From positions 1 to 20,031 of the IMG/VR virus record IMGVR_UViG_3300020141_000039: 20,031 nucleotides of DNA, one strand, 5' to 3'. The notes beneath the pieces are model-generated. The model was not told the origin of the DNA, did no database searches, and worked only from the letters and a program-made list of their open reading frames with translations. The position numbers and the translations under genes were made by a program. Origin of the DNA: a virus. Within the stretch, counting starts at the first letter, position 1. The number at the start of each line of letters is the position of its first letter. This document shows, one piece after another, positions 1,007-9,854 of this stretch.

Positions 1007-1657
1007 TTAATATTTTCCTGATGCAAGTACTATCTTGCAAATGTGTTCTAGTCTTTCTATGTGTTCGTATGCTCGCCATGGACTTGTGTCAATAGCAACC
1101 ACCCCGTGTCCTTTGATGCCTACAATATCGTAAGCAATATTTCCGTCTTTATCTAGCTGTAAATTCTCATGACAACGATCAGCAAGTTCTTGACTAATCG
1201 GAGCCACATCTCCTACATTAGGTGCTACCTTAGTATATCGATTGAGTTCTGGAAAAGACTCACTGATAGTACTAAGTTCAATACCGGCATGCATGGCCGC
1301 AATACAGTAGGTCGGGTGTACATGGACTACAACACGGACCTCACCTGTATGCTGACCCATTTCTTTTTGCAATCCAAAGTGTAACGGAAGTTCTCCACTA
1401 GGCTTTAGGTTCTTACTAATCTCAGTGTAGTCTAGTTCTACACTAGCATGATACCTAGTCGGTGGCTGATCGTAGTAGCCTGTTTCAATACCAATCTTCT
1501 TGAACTGATCAGGCTGTAGTGTTTGTTTACGTACACCGCTGGGCGTGATGTAAAAGTGATCACGGTCATGATGTCGTATGCTGACATTACCATCACGACT
1601 AGTGATCCAGTTACGCTTATAAGCGTCTACCATTATGTCACAGATTGTTTCTAACAT
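1007..1657 (-). CDS. Class II aldolase/adducin-family enzyme between nrdA and nrdB
   Basis: A 216-residue zinc-dependent class II aldolase/epimerase-type protein, the normal length of the fuculose-phosphate aldolase / ribulose-phosphate epimerase / MtnB group. Visible motifs: DGNVSIR (22-28) and TPSGV (38-42) for phosphate binding, SGELPLH with the likely catalytic E89, the HVHP zinc pair H112/H114, and a third zinc histidine in KGHG (H184). All expected catalytic positions are present, so the enzyme is probably active; the substrate cannot be read from sequence, but a C3-C5 sugar phosphate is likely. Its ATG overlaps the nrdA stop by one base (TAATG) and its stop abuts the nrdB start, so the three appear to be one translational unit. 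Being placed inside the ribonucleotide reductase operon is unusual and suggests a link to nucleotide or pentose metabolism (inference). Confidence 0.88.
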   Translation of the reverse strand: MLETICDIMVDAYKRNWITSRDGNVSIRHHDRDHFYITPSGVRKQTLQPDQFKKIGIETGYYDQPPTRYHASVELDYTEISKNLKPSGELPLHFGLQKEMGQHTGEVRVVVHVHPTYCIAAMHAGIELSTISESFPELNRYTKVAPNVGDVAPISQELADRCHENLQLDKDGNIAYDIVGIKGHGVVAIDTSPWRAYEHIERLEHICKIVLASGKY

Positions 1658-3984
1658 TATAGTTTACAGGCTTCGCAGTCTTCTTCTTCAAAGTCAACTT
1701 CAACATAAGTTTGTGCAACACTCTGTACAAGTTCCTCTTTGGCCTTACTACCTGCTTTATTGATTAGGCTGTAGTAGAATGTTTTCAATCCCCAATAGTG
1801 AGCTTGCATTAGATTTTTTGCAATCAATGTGGTTGGCACCTTACGATCTGCAAAGTGTGCAGGATTGTAAAATGTGTTAGTACTAATACTTTGATCAACG
1901 TATGCGGCCAGTACTGCGGCAGTTTTTAAATAACCGTCACAGTCCTTTTGATCCCACATCATTTGATATTTGCTCTTGAGTTTATGATACTCAGGGACAA
2001 CTTGGACAAAGGAACCTGCTTTGCTTTCCTTAACTGAAATAAGCGACATAGGCATTTCAATGCCATTAGTGCTATTAATAACAACACTAGAACTTTCAAC
2101 AGGGGCAATAGCCATAAGTGTAGCATTTCTAACTCCATGCAATTTCATATTAACTCGTAATGTTTCCCAATCTAGTTCAGGTGTAAAGTCAGCAAGTTCG
2201 TTTGATCCTTTGGCACGTGTCTCCCAAGGAAAGATGCCTTGTCCGTAGCGTGTCTTCTCACTATGTAAGCAAGCGCCACGTTCTTTGGCTAGTTCAACTG
2301 TTGCTTCTGTTAGATAATAGGCCTGATGTTCCATCCATGCCTTAACATCTTGTAAGGCATCTTTCTCCCCGTACTTCATGCCACGTTTAGCATGCCAATA
2401 GGCCAAGTTAGTAACGCCGATACCCAATGGCTGAATCTCATCATTGCTTAGTTTACTCTGTATACTTAAGAAGTCTTGATAGTCAAGTATGTTGCATAGA
2501 CTACGTTGTAAAATGCGGCAAGCACGGCGCATGTCTTCCGGATTCCGGAATGCTCCCCAGTTGATAGATCCTAATGTACATAACGCTATGCGACCTTCAG
2601 CGTCATCTAGACGTTTGAAAGATTTTGTGGGCAGTAGGATTTCACAACATAAGTTACTTTGATAGATAGTATGGTACTCTGGGTCGAACGGACCCTGGTT
2701 CATCACATTGTCAATGAACACTAGATAGATACGTCCTGTATCAGTACGTTCTTTCAGTATGCCTGACTTGAATACTTCTTCGGCTGACATTGTCTTTGTA
2801 CGCAAATCTTTACGCTTTTCGTACTTGACATACAGCTCTTCAAAACGTTCAGTGTTTTTATAAAATGCTTCATACAAGTCAGGAACTTCGTTTGGATCAA
2901 AGAAAGTTATGTTTTCTTTGTTCTTAAATCTTCTCCAGAAGAAGGCACTAAGCACAACCCCATAATCCATATGACGGACTCGGGTTTCTTCTGTTCCTTG
3001 GTTGTTCTTAAGCACAATAAGGTCATCAAACTGATGATGCCAAATAGGATAGAATACAGTAGCACTAGCATTACGAATGCCTCCTTGACTGCAACTACGT
3101 AGGTCTCCAAACCATTTCTTTAAAAAAGGTATCATACCTGTGTGCATGATCTCCCCACCTCTGATGGGACTACCTAATGGACGTAAGCGACCAATCTCCA
3201 AACCAATACCTGCACGTTTGCTAGCATACTTGGCCATCATCTCACCTGAAGCAAAGATGCTGTCTAGGTCGTCGTCTGATCTGATGAGGACGCAACTTGA
3301 GAACTGCTTGGTAGGAGTCCCCAGGCCAGCAAGTACAGGAGTAGCGAGAGTAAATAGACCGTCTGAAGCTGCCTGATAATATTCTTTGATAAATCGCATA
3401 CGAGCTGTGTTAGGTTCTTCTTTGTGGAAGACTGTAGCGGCTGCGACAATGTAACGTACTTGAGGTGTTTCATAAATTTCCTTTGTGGCGCGATTACGCA
3501 CTAGGTACTTTTCGATTAGTTGTTCAATGCTGGCGTATCCATACTCTTCATCTTTCTCATGATCCAGCATGTCATCCATTTTATTCCAATCTTCTTGTGT
3601 ATACCATGTTAGTAGTTCTTGAGTATACAATCCGGTAGCCACATTCTTTTTAACTATTTCATAAAGGTGAGGAGGCTCATAACTGCCATAGACATCTTTA
3701 CGTAGCATCGACAGTCGTTGTTTGCCTGCTACATATTGATAGTTGGTGTGTCCAATATCGGGATTTGATTCTACATCGATTAGGTCCACAATAGCACGTA
3801 GAGTTATTTCGTCAATCTCTTGTGTTGTGATACCGTCATAAAAATGTGGCTGGGCTTTGATTTCGATCATACTCTGACTTACGTCAGCTATACCGCTACA
3901 AACCTTTGCAATCTGTGTCTGCCATTTTTCTATTGTTAGTGGCTCTTTTAGGCCACTTCGTTTTGTTACTGTTATTGTTGTCAT
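1657..3984 (-). CDS. nrdA: Ribonucleotide reductase class I alpha subunit (NrdA)
   Basis: Large catalytic subunit of class I ribonucleotide reductase, 775 residues from the ATG at 3982-3984. A longer reading uses TTG at 3999; I prefer the ATG because MTTITVTKRSG gives a normal N-terminus. An ATP-cone-like allosteric domain occupies about residues 1-90. Catalytic residues: C231 in QFSSC, N444/C446/E448 in SNLCCE (thiyl-radical cysteine with its Asn and Glu partners), C469 in LCTLGSIN, the paired tyrosines in FYYSLI near the C-terminus, and a terminal CEACKL thiol tail. Spacings among C231, C446 and C469 match E. coli NrdA closely (225, 439, 462). The stop overlaps the aldolase start. Expression probably comes from the CTAAATA motif about 25 bases upstream. 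Confidence 0.97.
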   Translation of the reverse strand: MTTITVTKRSGLKEPLTIEKWQTQIAKVCSGIADVSQSMIEIKAQPHFYDGITTQEIDEITLRAIVDLIDVESNPDIGHTNYQYVAGKQRLSMLRKDVYGSYEPPHLYEIVKKNVATGLYTQELLTWYTQEDWNKMDDMLDHEKDEEYGYASIEQLIEKYLVRNRATKEIYETPQVRYIVAAATVFHKEEPNTARMRFIKEYYQAASDGLFTLATPVLAGLGTPTKQFSSCVLIRSDDDLDSIFASGEMMAKYASKRAGIGLEIGRLRPLGSPIRGGEIMHTGMIPFLKKWFGDLRSCSQGGIRNASATVFYPIWHHQFDDLIVLKNNQGTEETRVRHMDYGVVLSAFFWRRFKNKENITFFDPNEVPDLYEAFYKNTERFEELYVKYEKRKDLRTKTMSAEEVFKSGILKERTDTGRIYLVFIDNVMNQGPFDPEYHTIYQSNLCCEILLPTKSFKRLDDAEGRIALCTLGSINWGAFRNPEDMRRACRILQRSLCNILDYQDFLSIQSKLSNDEIQPLGIGVTNLAYWHAKRGMKYGEKDALQDVKAWMEHQAYYLTEATVELAKERGACLHSEKTRYGQGIFPWETRAKGSNELADFTPELDWETLRVNMKLHGVRNATLMAIAPVESSSVVINSTNGIEMPMSLISVKESKAGSFVQVVPEYHKLKSKYQMMWDQKDCDGYLKTAAVLAAYVDQSISTNTFYNPAHFADRKVPTTLIAKNLMQAHYWGLKTFYYSLINKAGSKAKEELVQSVAQTYVEVDFEEEDCEACKL

Positions 3985-4008
3985 TAGTCTCTCTTGCAAA
4001 GTGTTGAA

Positions 4009-6162: not shown

Positions 6163-6879
6163 TTATGCTAGGCGATAGTACTCTGATACCCGTGTACACC
6201 AGCGTTCTGTCCAATAATCAAAATCTGCAGATTCTAGAATAAACTCCTGATATTGCGGATCCGACCAAACTCCGGGTGTAATTTCTTCTGGCTTAACGCA
6301 CATTAAAATAACACCTTTACGTATGTTAGTTCCGTGTACTTCGTTATGAGCCATGGCATATGCAGTTAACTGAATAAAGTAGTCGTCAATAAACTCACGC
6401 TTTTTAGGCTTGTTAGTTTGTTTAAAGTCTAGAATACTTTGCTCACCTTTGTGTATGCCCACGCAGTCTGTAGTGCCTGCATACAGTTCCGGAAAATATA
6501 AAGGTACTTCACTGCCCCATACTTCGTCAACATGAATCATGCCTTCTGCAATAACCTTCTTGGCCATTACTAGGCTTTGTTGTGCATAGGGATTAGTTAC
6601 TGTGTCTTTTAAAGTTTCACCTTTAATATAGTTTTCCAAGTAGGTGTGCATCCTAGTACCACGATTAGCCGCTTCAGTGGTAATCTGTTGCGCCTTAGCT
6701 TCACCTACAGCTTTACGCCAGTTTGCTAGTGCAATACGGCTTTCTGCTGGTTTTGTTTTGTCTAGGATTGTGGTTACTGACGGAACCTTGTGTCCATCGG
6801 GCGTTGCATATAAACGCTTGCCCGATGATTCATCTCTAGTCAGTTTGGTATAGGTATATCGTTCTTGTAATAATGTCAT
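6163..6879 (-). CDS. PD-(D/E)XK superfamily exonuclease
   Basis: A 238-residue RecB/Cas4-like nuclease of the kind T4-like phages use in DNA replication, recombination or host DNA turnover. Motifs: a GTRMH helix (about 74-78) typical of the RecB-family N-terminus, E124 in GSEVPLY, the metal-binding D138 in TTDCVG, the catalytic ILDFK with D151 and K153, and the Q170...Y174 helix (QLTAY) that marks the RecB-like subgroup. All core residues are present, so activity is expected; there is no iron-sulphur cysteine cluster as in Cas4. A sigma70-type promoter ends five bases before the ATG, so transcripts may be leaderless. The neighbouring structural genes are late-type, whereas this gene appears to have host-polymerase (early/middle) control. 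Confidence 0.88.
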   Translation of the reverse strand: MTLLQERYTYTKLTRDESSGKRLYATPDGHKVPSVTTILDKTKPAESRIALANWRKAVGEAKAQQITTEAANRGTRMHTYLENYIKGETLKDTVTNPYAQQSLVMAKKVIAEGMIHVDEVWGSEVPLYFPELYAGTTDCVGIHKGEQSILDFKQTNKPKKREFIDDYFIQLTAYAMAHNEVHGTNIRKGVILMCVKPEEITPGVWSDPQYQEFILESADFDYWTERWCTRVSEYYRLA

Positions 6880-6884
6880 ATGCT

Positions 6885-6913
6885 ATAATAACATCTAGAA
6901 CTAAGGGTGTCAA
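6885..6913 (-). promoter_or_regulatory. Sigma70-type promoter for the exonuclease
   Basis: On the minus strand TTGACA (6908-6913), a 17-base spacer and TATTAT (6885-6890). The -35 box contains the TGA stop of the upstream gene. The -10 box ends only five bases before the exonuclease ATG, so initiation would fall at or next to the start codon, suggesting a leaderless mRNA. Confidence 0.7.
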
Positions 6914-7128
6914 CCCCTGGCTTTCCTCAAAGCGTGTTTTGCCATTTGACTTACACCCGAACCATCTAACTTAGCATCACTTGGTGCTGTGTCAGTTTTG
7001 GTTACTTTGGTTTTTAGTTCTACACCGTTTTGGTCAAAGCGTTGAGTAAGGCCTTGTGTAAGTGGATCGCTATCATAGGCCTGTTTGAATGAGTCATATG
7101 TAAACTCTTCATCGCCAACATTTTGCAT
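6910..7128 (-). CDS. Small unknown protein; probably the tail of a -1 frameshift product
   Basis: The ATG-initiated reading gives 72 residues (starting MQNVGDEEFTYDSF), hydrophilic and ending in a basic helix (AKHALRKARG). It has no known motif. Protein-like sequence continues upstream of this ATG in the same frame without ATG, GTG or TTG back to the slippery site at 7236-7242, including LTWDEVNRYM just before it. The more natural product is therefore a 108-residue C-terminal extension of the 296-residue upstream protein, made by -1 frameshifting (404 residues in all). Independent initiation at this ATG is possible: GAGG lies upstream, but 11 bases away, a poor spacing. A one-base assembly error in the A-run could also have split a single gene. 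Confidence 0.7.
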   Translation of the reverse strand: MQNVGDEEFTYDSFKQAYDSDPLTQGLTQRFDQNGVELKTKVTKTDTAPSDAKLDGSGVSQMAKHALRKARG

Positions 7129-7236
7129 GTAACGATTTACCTCATCCCAGGTAAGAACGGCAGGGCGACCTTTTTGATCTGCCCTGCCGATGAGTTGCTT
7201 TAATACTAGATTAAGTTGATTAACTTCTTCTGTTAC
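7129..7236 (-). other. Start-less open segment linking two genes in the -1 frame
   Basis: Between the TAA of the 296-residue gene and the ATG at 7128, the -1 frame is open for 36 codons and reads like real protein (VTEEVNQLNLVLKQLIGR, then GRPAVLTWDEVNRY). The frame is closed upstream only by a TGA at 7288-7290, and no ATG, GTG or TTG occurs between that stop and 7128. Translation of this segment would require a frameshift from the upstream gene. Confidence 0.65.
7158..7189 (-). other. Strong GC-rich stem-loop within the transframe segment
   Basis: In the minus-strand transcript CGGCAGGGC pairs perfectly with GCCCTGCCG. Inside this, GATC pairs with GGTC (one G-U pair) around an AAAAA loop, with a single bulged A. 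No U-tract follows, so it is a poor intrinsic terminator. It lies 46 bases beyond the slippery heptamer, farther than a usual frameshift stimulator. It may affect frameshifting, mRNA stability or processing. Confidence 0.6.
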
Positions 7237-8123
7237 TTTTTTTTTGGTGCTAGTAAGGTTGCTAGTTTGCGACCATACTCTCGGCTTTCACGTGTCATAC
7301 GACCAGCGGCTTCTTCACCACCTGCGGCTGTTGCATCTGCGGCAAACTCATCAGTTGGTTCGTCGCCCATTCCTTCGCCTGGCATAGCATCGTCTGGATT
7401 AGACATGTCTTCTTCGCCGCCGACTTCCATGCCTGGTTCTGCACCCATCATGTCGCCACCGTTTTCACCTGTTAGTAAGCCTACGCTTTGTGTAAGTGCC
7501 TGGCGTGATGATTCTAGTGCTGTGTAGATTGTGGCCAGTGAAGGTTTCACCACTGACTCAAATTCCATGGCTAAATCAGATCCCATTTCGTCTCTTATAG
7601 AGTCTACTAGTTCTAACATTGCTTCGGCCTGCATATTTGCTGTGTCTTCCATCCAGCCTGTAATGCGGTCAACCATGTCGCGAGCGGCCATGATTAATTC
7701 GGCTTTTTCTTCTTCGCCTTCTGTGATTACATCTTCTTTTAAGCCTGCCATTTTGGCACGGATCTCTGCCTTCTCTTGTAGCTCTTGAGGAATATCTTCA
7801 AATGCGATTAGGCCTTCTTCTACTTTGGCTAGTACTAATGATTCCATTTGTGTTAGCTGTGGAGCACTTGCTTCACGCTCTTCAATGGCTGTGTTTAGTA
7901 CATCTAAGAACATTTTATTCTTAGTAAAGTTTTCGTTGTTGATAACTGCATCATAGTTAGATGCACTTTCAAACTGACTAACTTTTGTTCGTAGCTTGTT
8001 GCGGGCGTCGAGCATTTGCTCTAGCGTAAAGCTGTCTAAGTTTAGCTTCTGGCCAAACATCTGAGCCGCGCTTTCATTCAAAGCCTTTGCTGTAGGTTTT
8101 TGGTGAAATTCTGTAATTCGCAT
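7233..8123 (-). CDS. Virion/head-type structural protein with acidic tail ending at a slippery site
   Basis: A 296-residue protein, largely helical, with a Gly/Met/Glu/Asp-rich acidic disordered region (about 220-275) and a basic end (LAPKKK). The central part (AARDMVDRITGWMEDTANMQAEAM, through DSIRDEMGSDLAMEFESVV) resembles, from memory, a conserved virion structural protein of T4-like cyanophages. The N-terminus MRITEFHQKP resembles T4 capsid-targeting leaders, and LNE-S at residues 15-18 fits the T4 prohead-protease pattern (L/I-X-E before A/S/G). It may be an internal or scaffold-like head protein (inference). The start has a good ribosome site (AGGAAG). The last two sense codons plus the preceding base form A AAA AAG followed immediately by the stop, permitting extension into the -1 frame. 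Confidence 0.82.
   Translation of the reverse strand: MRITEFHQKPTAKALNESAAQMFGQKLNLDSFTLEQMLDARNKLRTKVSQFESASNYDAVINNENFTKNKMFLDVLNTAIEEREASAPQLTQMESLVLAKVEEGLIAFEDIPQELQEKAEIRAKMAGLKEDVITEGEEEKAELIMAARDMVDRITGWMEDTANMQAEAMLELVDSIRDEMGSDLAMEFESVVKPSLATIYTALESSRQALTQSVGLLTGENGGDMMGAEPGMEVGGEEDMSNPDDAMPGEGMGDEPTDEFAADATAAGGEEAAGRMTRESREYGRKLATLLAPKKK
7236..7242 (-). promoter_or_regulatory. Candidate programmed -1 ribosomal frameshift site (A AAA AAG)
   Basis: In the phase of the upstream gene the mRNA reads AAA AAA AAG TAA, giving the dnaX-type heptamer A AAA AAG directly before the stop. A one-base backward slip continues with GTA ACA GAA into 108 open codons. A weak five-base-pair hairpin (AAGTT, loop AATC, AACTT) begins about nine bases downstream, at a suitable stimulator distance, and a stronger stem follows at 7158-7189. 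The run is nine A's, so a sequencing indel is the main alternative. Confidence 0.6.
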
Positions 8124-8161: not shown

Positions 8162-8616
8162 CTCAGCGATGCATAGAAGATGCCGTCTATTCGGCTCTTG
8201 GCATCCTTGACTTGCTCTGTGACTAGTTCCCAGCGCCAAAGTGCTGTGTCTTTAGTAACATAATCTTTGCTTACTTTCATGGTGTTTTTGTAAAATACTG
8301 AATCCATATAGTTTTTTTGAAAACGTTTATCTTCTTTTTCAATGTCATCAATTCGGGTAGACCACTTCTTATCGTGCAGTTTTGCTATGGCAAATGCTGA
8401 TACTTTTAAGTAGGTTGTTGCTATTAGTATTTTACGGGGCATTTGGAATACATTCCACATGTCATCAGGACCTCTGACGATCATGTAGTTTTTATATTTG
8501 GTAGATCGGGCATTGATGGGAACAAACATGCCACTTCTCACAGCCATGTCATATATCTGTGCTTCTAACTTTTCTGAGTCCATTATTTTATGTGTTTGGG
8601 TAGATATAGGTTTCAT
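8158..8616 (-). CDS. Hypothetical phage protein, basic, about 150 aa
   Basis: A soluble protein of 152 residues with no motif I can name. It is rich in Lys, Asp and aromatic residues, has a central beta-rich part (YKNYMIVRGPDDMWNVFQM) and a long charged helical region (DDIEKEDKRFQKNYMDSVFYK). The longer start at 8616 overlaps the preceding gene by 29 bases and has a weak AGGG eight bases upstream. A start at 8583 (MDSEKLEAQ), just after the preceding stop, would give 141 residues by coupling but lacks a ribosome site. It is part of the tightly packed 9854-to-8158 operon whose other members are nucleotidyltransferase-fold and small unknown proteins. No function can be assigned. Confidence 0.78.
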   Translation of the reverse strand: MKPISTQTHKIMDSEKLEAQIYDMAVRSGMFVPINARSTKYKNYMIVRGPDDMWNVFQMPRKILIATTYLKVSAFAIAKLHDKKWSTRIDDIEKEDKRFQKNYMDSVFYKNTMKVSKDYVTKDTALWRWELVTEQVKDAKSRIDGIFYASLR

Positions 8617-8791
8617 TATTGTTGCCCTGTACTTTAATTACAAGACTTTTCCTGATTAGGCTCTCGATTATGAAACGCTCGTGTTCTTCAAATGTTTTCA
8701 TAGACACTAACCCCTTGAGAGTTTCTAGGATAGCACGTTCTTCGCGGCTAGTCCAAGTATCAAGGCTTCTAACAAGTTCGTTTAGTTTCAT
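8588..8791 (-). CDS. Small hypothetical protein with winged-helix-like pattern
   Basis: A 67-residue protein: helices around ELVRSLDTWTSREERAIL, EHERFIIESLIRKSLVIKV, then a short beta hairpin ending NETYIYPNT. The order (helices, then 'LIRKSLVIKVQGNNNETYIYP') is reminiscent of a small winged-helix domain, but this is an impression without diagnostic residues. The N-terminus MKLNELVRSL is short and amphipathic like its neighbours' leaders. Its ATG overlaps the stop of the preceding gene by one base (TAATG), so it is translationally coupled. Confidence 0.72.
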   Translation of the reverse strand: MKLNELVRSLDTWTSREERAILETLKGLVSMKTFEEHERFIIESLIRKSLVIKVQGNNNETYIYPNT

Positions 8792-9135
8792 TATAGTTGT
8801 GTTAGTTGTCTGCGTAGATCAGTTAACTGTTTAGTTACAGCGGTAATCTGATCTTGAATAGCTTTACGCTGTTCTAGGCGTTGCTTTTGTTGTTGTGCCA
8901 TCATAGCACTTTGTATTTTTGGGTCATTAGATGTTGCTGGCATAGCCGCTGCCATACCCGCGGCAGTTTGTAAAGCGCCTGTTCCTGCTTTACCTATTGC
9001 GCCGCCTACAGCTTGAGCACCTTTTGCCAGTGCGCCGCCTACCGCAGAGCCTACTCTTGCCGCTCCGGCGGCAACTGCTGGCAGAAACTCATTTAGTTGT
9101 TTATCATCTTCGTTTACTATGTCTTGTAATCTCAT
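8791..9135 (-). CDS. Small Ala/Gly-rich protein with coiled-coil end; possible internal virion protein
   Basis: A 114-residue protein in three parts: a leader MRLQDIVNEDDKQLNEF; a strongly Ala/Gly/Val-rich stretch (about 18-66) with GAARVGSAVGGALAKGAQAVGG-like periodicity, long enough to insert in or associate with membrane; and a Gln/Arg/Leu-rich coiled coil (about 78-114). Leader, glycine-zipper-like middle and coiled coil suggest a virion-internal or membrane-interacting protein, but no homologue is recognised. Its ATG overlaps the stop of the nucleotidyltransferase-like gene (ATGA) and its stop overlaps the next start. It could alternatively be a pilot- or holin-type membrane protein; confidence in function is low. 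Confidence 0.75.
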   Translation of the reverse strand: MRLQDIVNEDDKQLNEFLPAVAAGAARVGSAVGGALAKGAQAVGGAIGKAGTGALQTAAGMAAAMPATSNDPKIQSAMMAQQQKQRLEQRKAIQDQITAVTKQLTDLRRQLTQL

Positions 9136-9854
9136 TGTCTGCCCTCAATACTTAAATCTTTATCTACGATGTTATTCATATGATCCTGTAGTCTTTCAAT
9201 CCATTTTTTGTTACGTAGCATTTTGTATACTAGATTCTCTGTGCTAAACTCACTTGCGGCACTTTCTAATCCTGACTTACGCATACGTTTGATGTCATCC
9301 CACATGTGTTTAGCAATGTCATGATCATCTTGTTTTAAGACTAACTTTACTCTATCTCTGTAGTTAGTGTATTTACGCTGTACGTCTTCACTGTCTACGT
9401 CTATATCGGTTCGTTCTGCTTGTGATACCCACTCGTCATTTAATACACTATAGATTCCTACGCTGTGATGATCTTGTCCCACATCTTGTGCATATAGTTC
9501 TACAGGTATATCCCTAACTGTAATGTCATGTCGAGCATTGTAGTCATTCTTCTTGGCATCGAGCAACTGCTTGTATTCTTCAGTATCAGGCACTTGCACT
9601 ATAATGTGTAGATCTATATCACTGTGACTTGTATAGCTATAAGCCGCATTACTACCACTGATAGTAATGTCAACTACATCTAGTTCAACGCCAATGAACT
9701 CTTCAAAGTGTTTGGCTATCTTAAGTAGGCCTTGTCTAATCTCTGGAATCAGTTGTTGGTTGGCAAATAGTTTGGGATTTAGTTCGTCGTGAAACTGCAC
9801 AGCATGGTCAATGCTGAACTCGCGTACAATATCAGTAAACTCTTTTATAAGCAT
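9132..9854 (-). CDS. Nucleotidyltransferase-fold (Pol-beta-like) phage protein
   Basis: A 240-residue protein with the signature of the DNA polymerase beta-like nucleotidyltransferase fold: ISGSNAAYSYTSHSDIDLHI, giving G67-S68 and the metal-binding carboxylates D79 and D81. A third carboxylate is likely in the following strand (DIPVELYAQD). The family transfers nucleotides to proteins, small molecules or RNA; the substrate here is unknown. From memory, related proteins are widespread in T4-like phages. The leader MLIKEFTDIV resembles T4 internal-head-protein targeting peptides, raising the possibility that it is packaged and injected (inference). A CTAAATA motif lies only four bases before the ATG. 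It leads a four-gene overlapping operon (9854 to 8158). Confidence 0.8.
   Translation of the reverse strand: MLIKEFTDIVREFSIDHAVQFHDELNPKLFANQQLIPEIRQGLLKIAKHFEEFIGVELDVVDITISGSNAAYSYTSHSDIDLHIIVQVPDTEEYKQLLDAKKNDYNARHDITVRDIPVELYAQDVGQDHHSVGIYSVLNDEWVSQAERTDIDVDSEDVQRKYTNYRDRVKLVLKQDDHDIAKHMWDDIKRMRKSGLESAASEFSTENLVYKMLRNKKWIERLQDHMNNIVDKDLSIEGRQ

Follow-up and report, generated by a model that had tools for sequence, protein, structure and literature searches.

A conserved putative frameshift site joins a winged-helix-like extension to a predicted head protein in a family of T4-superfamily jumbo phages

Frameshift-extended capsid proteins are known from gene 10 of phages T7 and T3 and from the head protein of Lactobacillus phage A2 where a -1 shift near the end of the gene yields a minor form of the virion protein that carries an additional domain at its C-terminus (PMC5009743). 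The same review describes retroviral Gag-Pol, in which the shift fuses a domain to the carrier of a particle-entry signal, and E. coli dnaX, in which the heptamer A_AAA_AAG is followed by a 3' stem-loop and the shift shortens the product. The gene reported here is of this known kind, while its carrier, its domain and a testable purpose are new. It resembles T7/T3 gene 10 and A2 in the position and consequence of the shift but differs in that, without a direct sequence comparison, the added domain is winged-helix-like and is borne by a protein that is predicted to lie inside the head and has a capsid-targeting-like leader. The heptamer is identical to that of dnaX, and a 3' hairpin is predicted in many family members. 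The likeness to Gag-Pol is an analogy only, as the present gene belongs to a dsDNA phage and no polymerase was seen in the extension.

The window, that is the whole stretch of DNA analysed, is a virus record of 20,031 bases that is probably a fragment, and the gene lies on its minus strand, with the following features:

7233..8123, minus strand: main gene in the 0 frame, 296 aa, start at 8123 and end at 7233
7236..7242, minus strand: slippery heptamer A_AAA_AAG, within the A9 run 7237-7245, with the stop adjoining
7233..7235, minus strand: 0-frame stop TAA
6910..7236, minus strand: extension in the -1 frame, 108 codons followed by TGA (6912-6910)

The 3' end of the main gene reads CCA AAA AAA AAG TAA, with nine A's at 7245-7237 followed by a G at 7236, and -1 reading from the heptamer gives PKKK-VTEEVNQLNLVLK... 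as the start of the extension, so that the sequence specifies an unshifted product of 296 aa and a shifted product of 404 aa. An earlier note made from the letters alone had claimed that the gene ends with an in-phase A AAA AAG directly before its stop, and that the -1 frame stays open for 108 codons without an ATG, GTG or TTG before 7128; both claims were recomputed and are exact, the earliest such codon being the one at 7128. Two more contigs (L002 and L003) have the identical sequence, with nine A's, and may represent the same virus as the window.

Relatives were fetched from IMG/VR viral contigs in several scans. Three broad scans each contributed the best 80 of 473-551 confirmed relatives, in overlapping sets, and smaller scans gave 54, 13 and 10 loci; the sample therefore leans toward relatives of the queries used. 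From a total of 311 loci, HMMs recognised the main domain together with the extension in 307, and four (L197, L256, L257 and L303) were dropped as one of the two parts was missing. In 268 of the 307 loci the gene closes with an in-frame A_AAA_AA[A/G] and the extension follows in the -1 frame, a count that includes L094 and its copy L265, which were reclassified as separate-start forms; 33 loci had no slippery heptamer, and six (L021, L026, L027, L028, L030 and L054) carried A11 or CA10, which places their extension in the +1/-2 frame. Because many loci are overlapping fetches of one contig, they were de-duplicated at 90% on 150 nt around the run, leaving 148 loci, of which 130 are frameshifters, 17 have a separate extension start (including L094) and one is a +1 form. 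As a measure of chance, elsewhere in the same ORFs an in-frame A_AAA_AA[AG] occurred at 38 of 38,827 codon positions, and among the other plus-strand ORFs of at least 100 aa in the same loci a heptamer at the end was found in 3 of 866, and such an end followed by a -1 frame open for at least 90 codons in only 1 of 866. A chance origin of the conserved heptamer and -1 extension is excluded. Comparison with homologues, which the earlier note had proposed as a check, thus found both elements kept across a wide family, and its inference of a programmed -1 frameshift in a virion-type protein is well supported.

The same note had allowed that ten A's in the raw reads would reduce the arrangement to a single continuous gene, and the homopolymer is indeed long. 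That alternative fails, and an origin in sequencing or assembly error or in gene decay, which retains practically no probability, is refuted for the family as a whole by an identical arrangement in 130 of the 148 non-redundant loci from many samples, by purifying selection on the extension and by conservation of the main protein. The selection was measured as dN/dS values of 0.06-0.23 in 14 of 14 relative pairs, three of them from the +1 clade, although the pairs are not independent and dS exceeded 1.4 in three. The extension is under purifying selection. The clade with A11 or CA10 retains the predicted hairpin as well as the selection in spite of its different frame, so that in this clade another type of shift, or polymerase slippage, must serve.

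Among the titles and abstract openings listed in searches of the open literature, which did not cover subscription papers, none describes the family. A scan of genome contigs for the main protein gave no relative. Among phage isolates, relatives of the main protein were found only in Sinorhizobium phage Phosso and then, via Phosso, in two records of Agrobacterium phage Atu_ph07; with the L123 main protein or the L150 extension as the query, none was found.

The extension was modelled with AlphaFold2, which gave a pLDDT of about 90 over residues 1-80 and a disordered tail, and the folded part corresponds to the following stretch:

6997..7236, minus strand: folded, winged-helix-like part of the extension, AlphaFold2 residues 1-80

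A winged-helix fold has the order helix-strand-helix-helix-strand-strand. The modelled order is helix-strand-helix-helix-helix-strand-strand, with one short helix more than this pattern, and many of the 50 structure matches listed for the extension were winged-helix domains, with Z up to 7.1, among them those of MCM8, JetC, PhoB, MukE and Rok. According to the tool's own warning, matches at this level of Z may reflect merely a common arrangement. Sequence searches of the window extension against Pfam and PHROGs reached best E values of 0.019 and 0.055, respectively, without a match to a winged-helix family, the families at these values not being known as winged-helix, and the extension family profile against PDB sequences had no significant match (best E 0.19). 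The extension thus models as a winged-helix-like domain shaped like DNA-binding ones, while contact of its winged helix with DNA is an inference for which there are no binding data.

In order to assess RNA structure 3' of the heptamer independently of the encoded protein, folding was compared with a synonymous-codon null in 111 loci, a set that includes L094. The mean fold z was -1.71 for codons 1-15 and -2.00 for codons 3-17, with only 39-41% of loci below -2 beside the heptamer; farther on it was -1.08 (codons 5-19), -0.25 to -0.43 (windows at 8-26), -0.78 to -0.89 (codons 16-34) and -0.08 to -0.49 (windows from codon 30 onward). Two subgroups, both selected because hairpins were present, were aligned. 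In the first, of 16 sequences, a 9-bp helix begins 8 nt past the heptamer in 14 rows and 11 nt past it in L102 and L104. Of its cells 99.3% were paired, against 29-43% in slid controls, and 4 of 9 pairs showed double changes. In the second, of 11 sequences, a 13-pair helix had 93.4% of cells paired, and its count of double-change pairs was within that of the shuffles (85 of 500 were as high). Structure 3' of the site is thereby supported in a large subset of the family at the level of predicted folding. A Shine-Dalgarno (SD)-like core upstream of the heptamer was sought but found in only 17 of 130 frameshifters, which is a difference from dnaX.

A 3' structure that stimulates a -1 site lies about 5-9 nt from it. 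The strong hairpin of the window gene does not lie at this distance but at 46 nt:

7158..7189, minus strand: hairpin of 13 bp within the mRNA of the extension, 46 nt past the heptamer on its 3' side

It was found in an 86-nt stretch with an MFE of -28.2 and a z of -5.9. In six sequences 98.7% of its cells were paired with one double change, and covariation in these six did not exceed that of shuffles (72 of 500 as high). In the window clade, 12 non-independent pairs gave a fraction of identical synonymous codons of 0.79-0.86 in extension codons 0-36, compared with 0.63-0.67 later in the extension and 0.58 for the main gene. This hairpin is a possible frameshift stimulator with an unusual spacing.

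The run of A's also raises the question of which enzyme would slip. The length of the run was A9 in 112 of 131 slippery rows, A10 in 13, A8 in four, A11 in one and A6 in one, the last being L094, which is not a frameshifter, and the last base of the heptamer was G in 108 rows and A in 23. In transcriptional slippage, RNA polymerase would add one A to, or drop two from, the A9 run, and the altered mRNA would be translated into the extended form. Nine A's are a known slippage site, established for bacterial RNA polymerase (PMC5009743), and the prevalent A9 is longer than a ribosomal site requires and meets the criterion of about nine A/T for slippage of this kind. The lysine codons are preceded by TCA in 97 of 131 rows, though TCA makes up 30% of serine codons in these genes, and the excess of TCA and CCA stretches the A run past the heptamer; the A11/CA10 clade, moreover, fits an mRNA one A shorter better than a -1 ribosomal slip. 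Against this, the covarying helix 8 nt past the heptamer in one subgroup and the fold signal adjoining the site under the codon null both resemble a ribosomal stimulator, whereas the context hairpin for polymerase slippage sits 5' rather than 3' in the review (PMC5009743), and the terminal G of the heptamer stands at the exact phase in most rows while four loci have merely A8. Slippage by the polymerase as the source of the extended form is accordingly rated rather unlikely though not excluded, and -1 ribosomal frameshifting, itself inferred, is clearly favoured over it as a matter of judgement, although both may act. L094, with its six A's, had been considered as a disproof of polymerase slippage, an argument that was abandoned because the extension of this locus starts at a separate ATG and bears a leader.

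The main protein is predicted to be helical, with an acidic disordered linker near its C-terminus (mean pLDDT 66). Its matches are phrog_14154 (E=5e-12), annotated 'virion structural protein', and the core of Atu_ph07 gp044, which bears the same annotation in RefSeq, and it had no match among PDB sequences. T4-type leaders have a consensus that ends in (L/I)xE, and the main protein begins with a leader of similar form:

8073..8123, minus strand: 17-residue leader MRITEFHQKPTAKALNE, like a T4 capsid-targeting propeptide, ending in an LxE site

In relatives the leader takes the form M-x-[IL]-x-[ED]-[FL]...LNE/S, with the stroke after the glutamate; N16 and E17 do not vary in any of the 24 relatives aligned, and LNE is present in 98 of 117 rows, with another motif or none in 19. 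Short leaders ending in hydrophobic-x-Glu are described for T4 internal proteins, and for T4 IPIII the first 10 residues suffice for capsid targeting while residues 8 and 10 govern processing (PMC9026906); prohead proteases of giant phages also cleave after Glu (PMC5694885). By this analogy the leader is inferred to be a capsid-targeting propeptide with prohead-protease-like cleavage after LNE, with the difference that it has 17 residues and that there are no targeting or cleavage data. The Atu_ph07 study (PMC6102473) includes mass spectrometry of virions, in which detection of gp044 itself is unconfirmed.

Head genes were also searched for. A T4-type major capsid protein and portal were found in 3 of 13 records (a 278-kb contig, a 400-kb contig and Phosso), with no capsid or portal match in the other 10, and an S77 prohead protease in 5 of 7 records (four large contigs and Phosso), a search that left out the 20-kb window record. 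The protease was absent in two of the seven, one of them 212 kb long, in which no T4-type capsid, portal or prohead protease was found. Identity of the main protein with the gp22 scaffold was considered and rejected, because by eye the interval from portal to capsid genes in four large contigs holds other acidic proteins and the frameshift gene lies elsewhere.

The main protein probably lies inside the virus head, which is inferred in the absence of protein data. The frameshifted protein could be real and nonetheless belong to the tail, the neck or another part of the virion, or be a non-virion factor, with a leader that is not capsid-targeting. The gene is indeed distant from head genes, since in the 278-kb contig about 150 kb separate it from the genes for portal and capsid, and in the window it is near tail-spike-like and exonuclease genes. 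The leader, however, ends in LxE and most of the records searched have the protease that would be expected to act on it; similar leaders are frequent on the genes upstream (111 of 628 ORFs compared with 5 of 347 background ORFs of contig G014), and they are found on every standalone form of the extension. A location or role outside the head is consequently considered unlikely, though not to be set aside lightly. The control and upstream ORFs were called mechanically (ATG, at least 60 aa), so that spurious ORFs dilute both counts.

The standalone forms bear most directly on what the frameshift may be for. In 35 of 307 loci (17 of 148 non-redundant) the extension starts at a separate ATG close to the main stop. 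This ATG overlaps the stop as ATGA in L019 and as TAATG in the L164 clade; otherwise it lies 4-15 nt from the stop's first base, and many such starts follow an AAGGAT-like ribosome site. A capsid-targeting-like leader was present on 35 of 35 of these extensions, compared with the same 5 of 347 background ORFs; examples are MKISDIINE/G, MKLFDLVKE/A, MRVSDIILE/E and MKVFELYEE, which are of the same kind as the leaders of neighbouring genes (MRLQDIVNE in the window). The leader pattern was drawn from examples and fixed before a later scan, which supplied 21 of the 35 (13 non-redundant), one of these, L265, duplicating the already fetched L094 contig. Among the 268 slippery loci a leader-like extension start occurred only in L094 and its copy L265, both with six A's, and the other 266 had none within the first 30 extension codons. 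As only these six-A loci combine a heptamer with a leader, a complete slippery site and a leader of the import-like kind are mutually exclusive in this sample. In L019 (5855-6475) the standalone extension continues for about 90 residues without a counterpart in the aligned extensions, and the locus ends inside it.

An independent start for the downstream protein in homologues had been named in the earlier note as evidence that would refute the frameshift. That condition is fulfilled in the 35 loci, but an in-frame heptamer is missing from 33 of them, the other two are L094 and L265 with only A6, and all 35 carry their own leader. Separate production of the extension in frameshifters themselves, by re-initiation or from an internal start such as the 72-aa ORF with ATG at 7128, could in addition appeal to TAATG at the stop in a few of them (e.g. 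L022 and L079). It is made very improbable by the lack of a leader-like start in the 266 loci, by the finding of any ATG within the first 10 extension codons in only 12 of 130, and by the model, in which a start at 7128 would remove helix 1, strand 1 and part of helix 2.

In a FastTree tree the standalone forms made up five clades within the frameshifters, with six Fitch changes including the +1 form. Two of the five are on weakly supported forks (0.64 and 0.48), and L019 was inside a well supported frameshifter clade in a separate quick tree. The tree was rooted by choice, and the direction, with the frameshift ancestral and the standalone form derived, depends on this; on the chosen rooting, Fitch parsimony would derive the standalone forms from frameshifters. 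Relatives without the slip look, from their sequences, as if they give the extension a head-entry tag of its own. Read most simply, the extension has to reach the destination of the leader, and through the frameshift it can make use of the leader that the main protein already has.

The isolates Phosso (XYS97615, phrog_14154) and Atu_ph07 (gp044) have a homologous core domain, with E values for the main HMM of 2.5e-21 and 5e-16, respectively, in small searches, and no significant match to the extension was found in the Phosso stretch (six frames) or in Atu_ph07 gp043-gp045. The gene after the core (L056:10666-11064 and L253:6345-6731) encodes a protein of 128-132 aa with the leader MRLSEIINE or MRLIDLLE. 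These two proteins are 31-34% identical (blastp E 4e-8 in a four-sequence set), a likeness that tblastn at 1e-3 missed, and scans of viral contigs with the two genes gave none and one (Atu_ph07 itself). Homology of this neighbour gene to the extension was considered and is not shown (hhalign 2%).

Immediately downstream of the extension, a promoter-like sequence was noted by eye:

6885..6913, minus strand: sigma-70-like promoter TTGACA-N17-TATTAT, overlapping the extension stop

A PD-(D/E)XK exonuclease gene (6163-6879, minus strand) begins 6 nt past the -10 element, and its mRNA may for this reason be leaderless; in 56 of 130 relatives a similar promoter pattern begins at the stop of the extension or shortly past it. 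Elsewhere in the window, a gene at 1657-3999 (minus strand) resembles by eye the large subunit of ribonucleotide reductase. Of the four genes that immediately precede the main gene (window 8588-9854, minus strand), three have leader-like starts by a looser pattern (MKLNEL, MRLQDIVNE and MLIKEF) and encode proteins of 67, 114 and 240 aa, the 240-aa one weakly nucleotidyltransferase-like, and this cassette may encode further head-internal proteins. Upstream of the frameshift gene in L120 (1085-1893) are two small, very basic proteins with the leaders MLVREITE and MRFAELTE that look by eye like internal DNA-condensing head proteins. In contig G014 (L241:10369-13611) the looser leader pattern recurs in a second group, of six ORFs, far from the frameshift cassette.

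Taken together, the favoured account, somewhat better than an even proposition and without protein or RNA data, is that the gene is decoded in two ways and that the frameshift ferries a winged-helix-like domain into the prohead by means of a shared leader. Most ribosomes would stop at the TAA and produce the helical, acidic protein of 296 aa, while a fraction, in a ratio that is only inferred, would slip by -1 on A_AAA_AAG and produce the 404-aa form ending in the winged-helix-like domain, with the 3' RNA hairpin aiding the slip in many relatives. The shared leader (...LNE/S) would bring both forms into the prohead in the manner of a T4 capsid-targeting sequence, and a T4-type prohead protease would then remove it. 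In this way the frameshift would tether a minor amount of an extra domain to a head-internal protein, as Gag-Pol brings in Pol.

Whether the frameshift is a capsid-import device in general, a dsDNA phage analogue of Gag-Pol that has been exchanged repeatedly (five clades, one tree) for a leader-bearing gene, is evenly balanced on present evidence; the repeated swap of the frameshift for an own leader is proposed to mean that the two are interchangeable ways to internalise one protein. The gene belongs to a large recoded family in T4-superfamily jumbo phages that is known here almost only from environmental contigs, and ordinary gene calling would truncate its product at the 0-frame stop. The repeated exchange between frameshift and leader offers a direct test of the purpose of virion frameshifts, and the family provides a sequence handle on the head-packaged proteins of uncultured giant phages.
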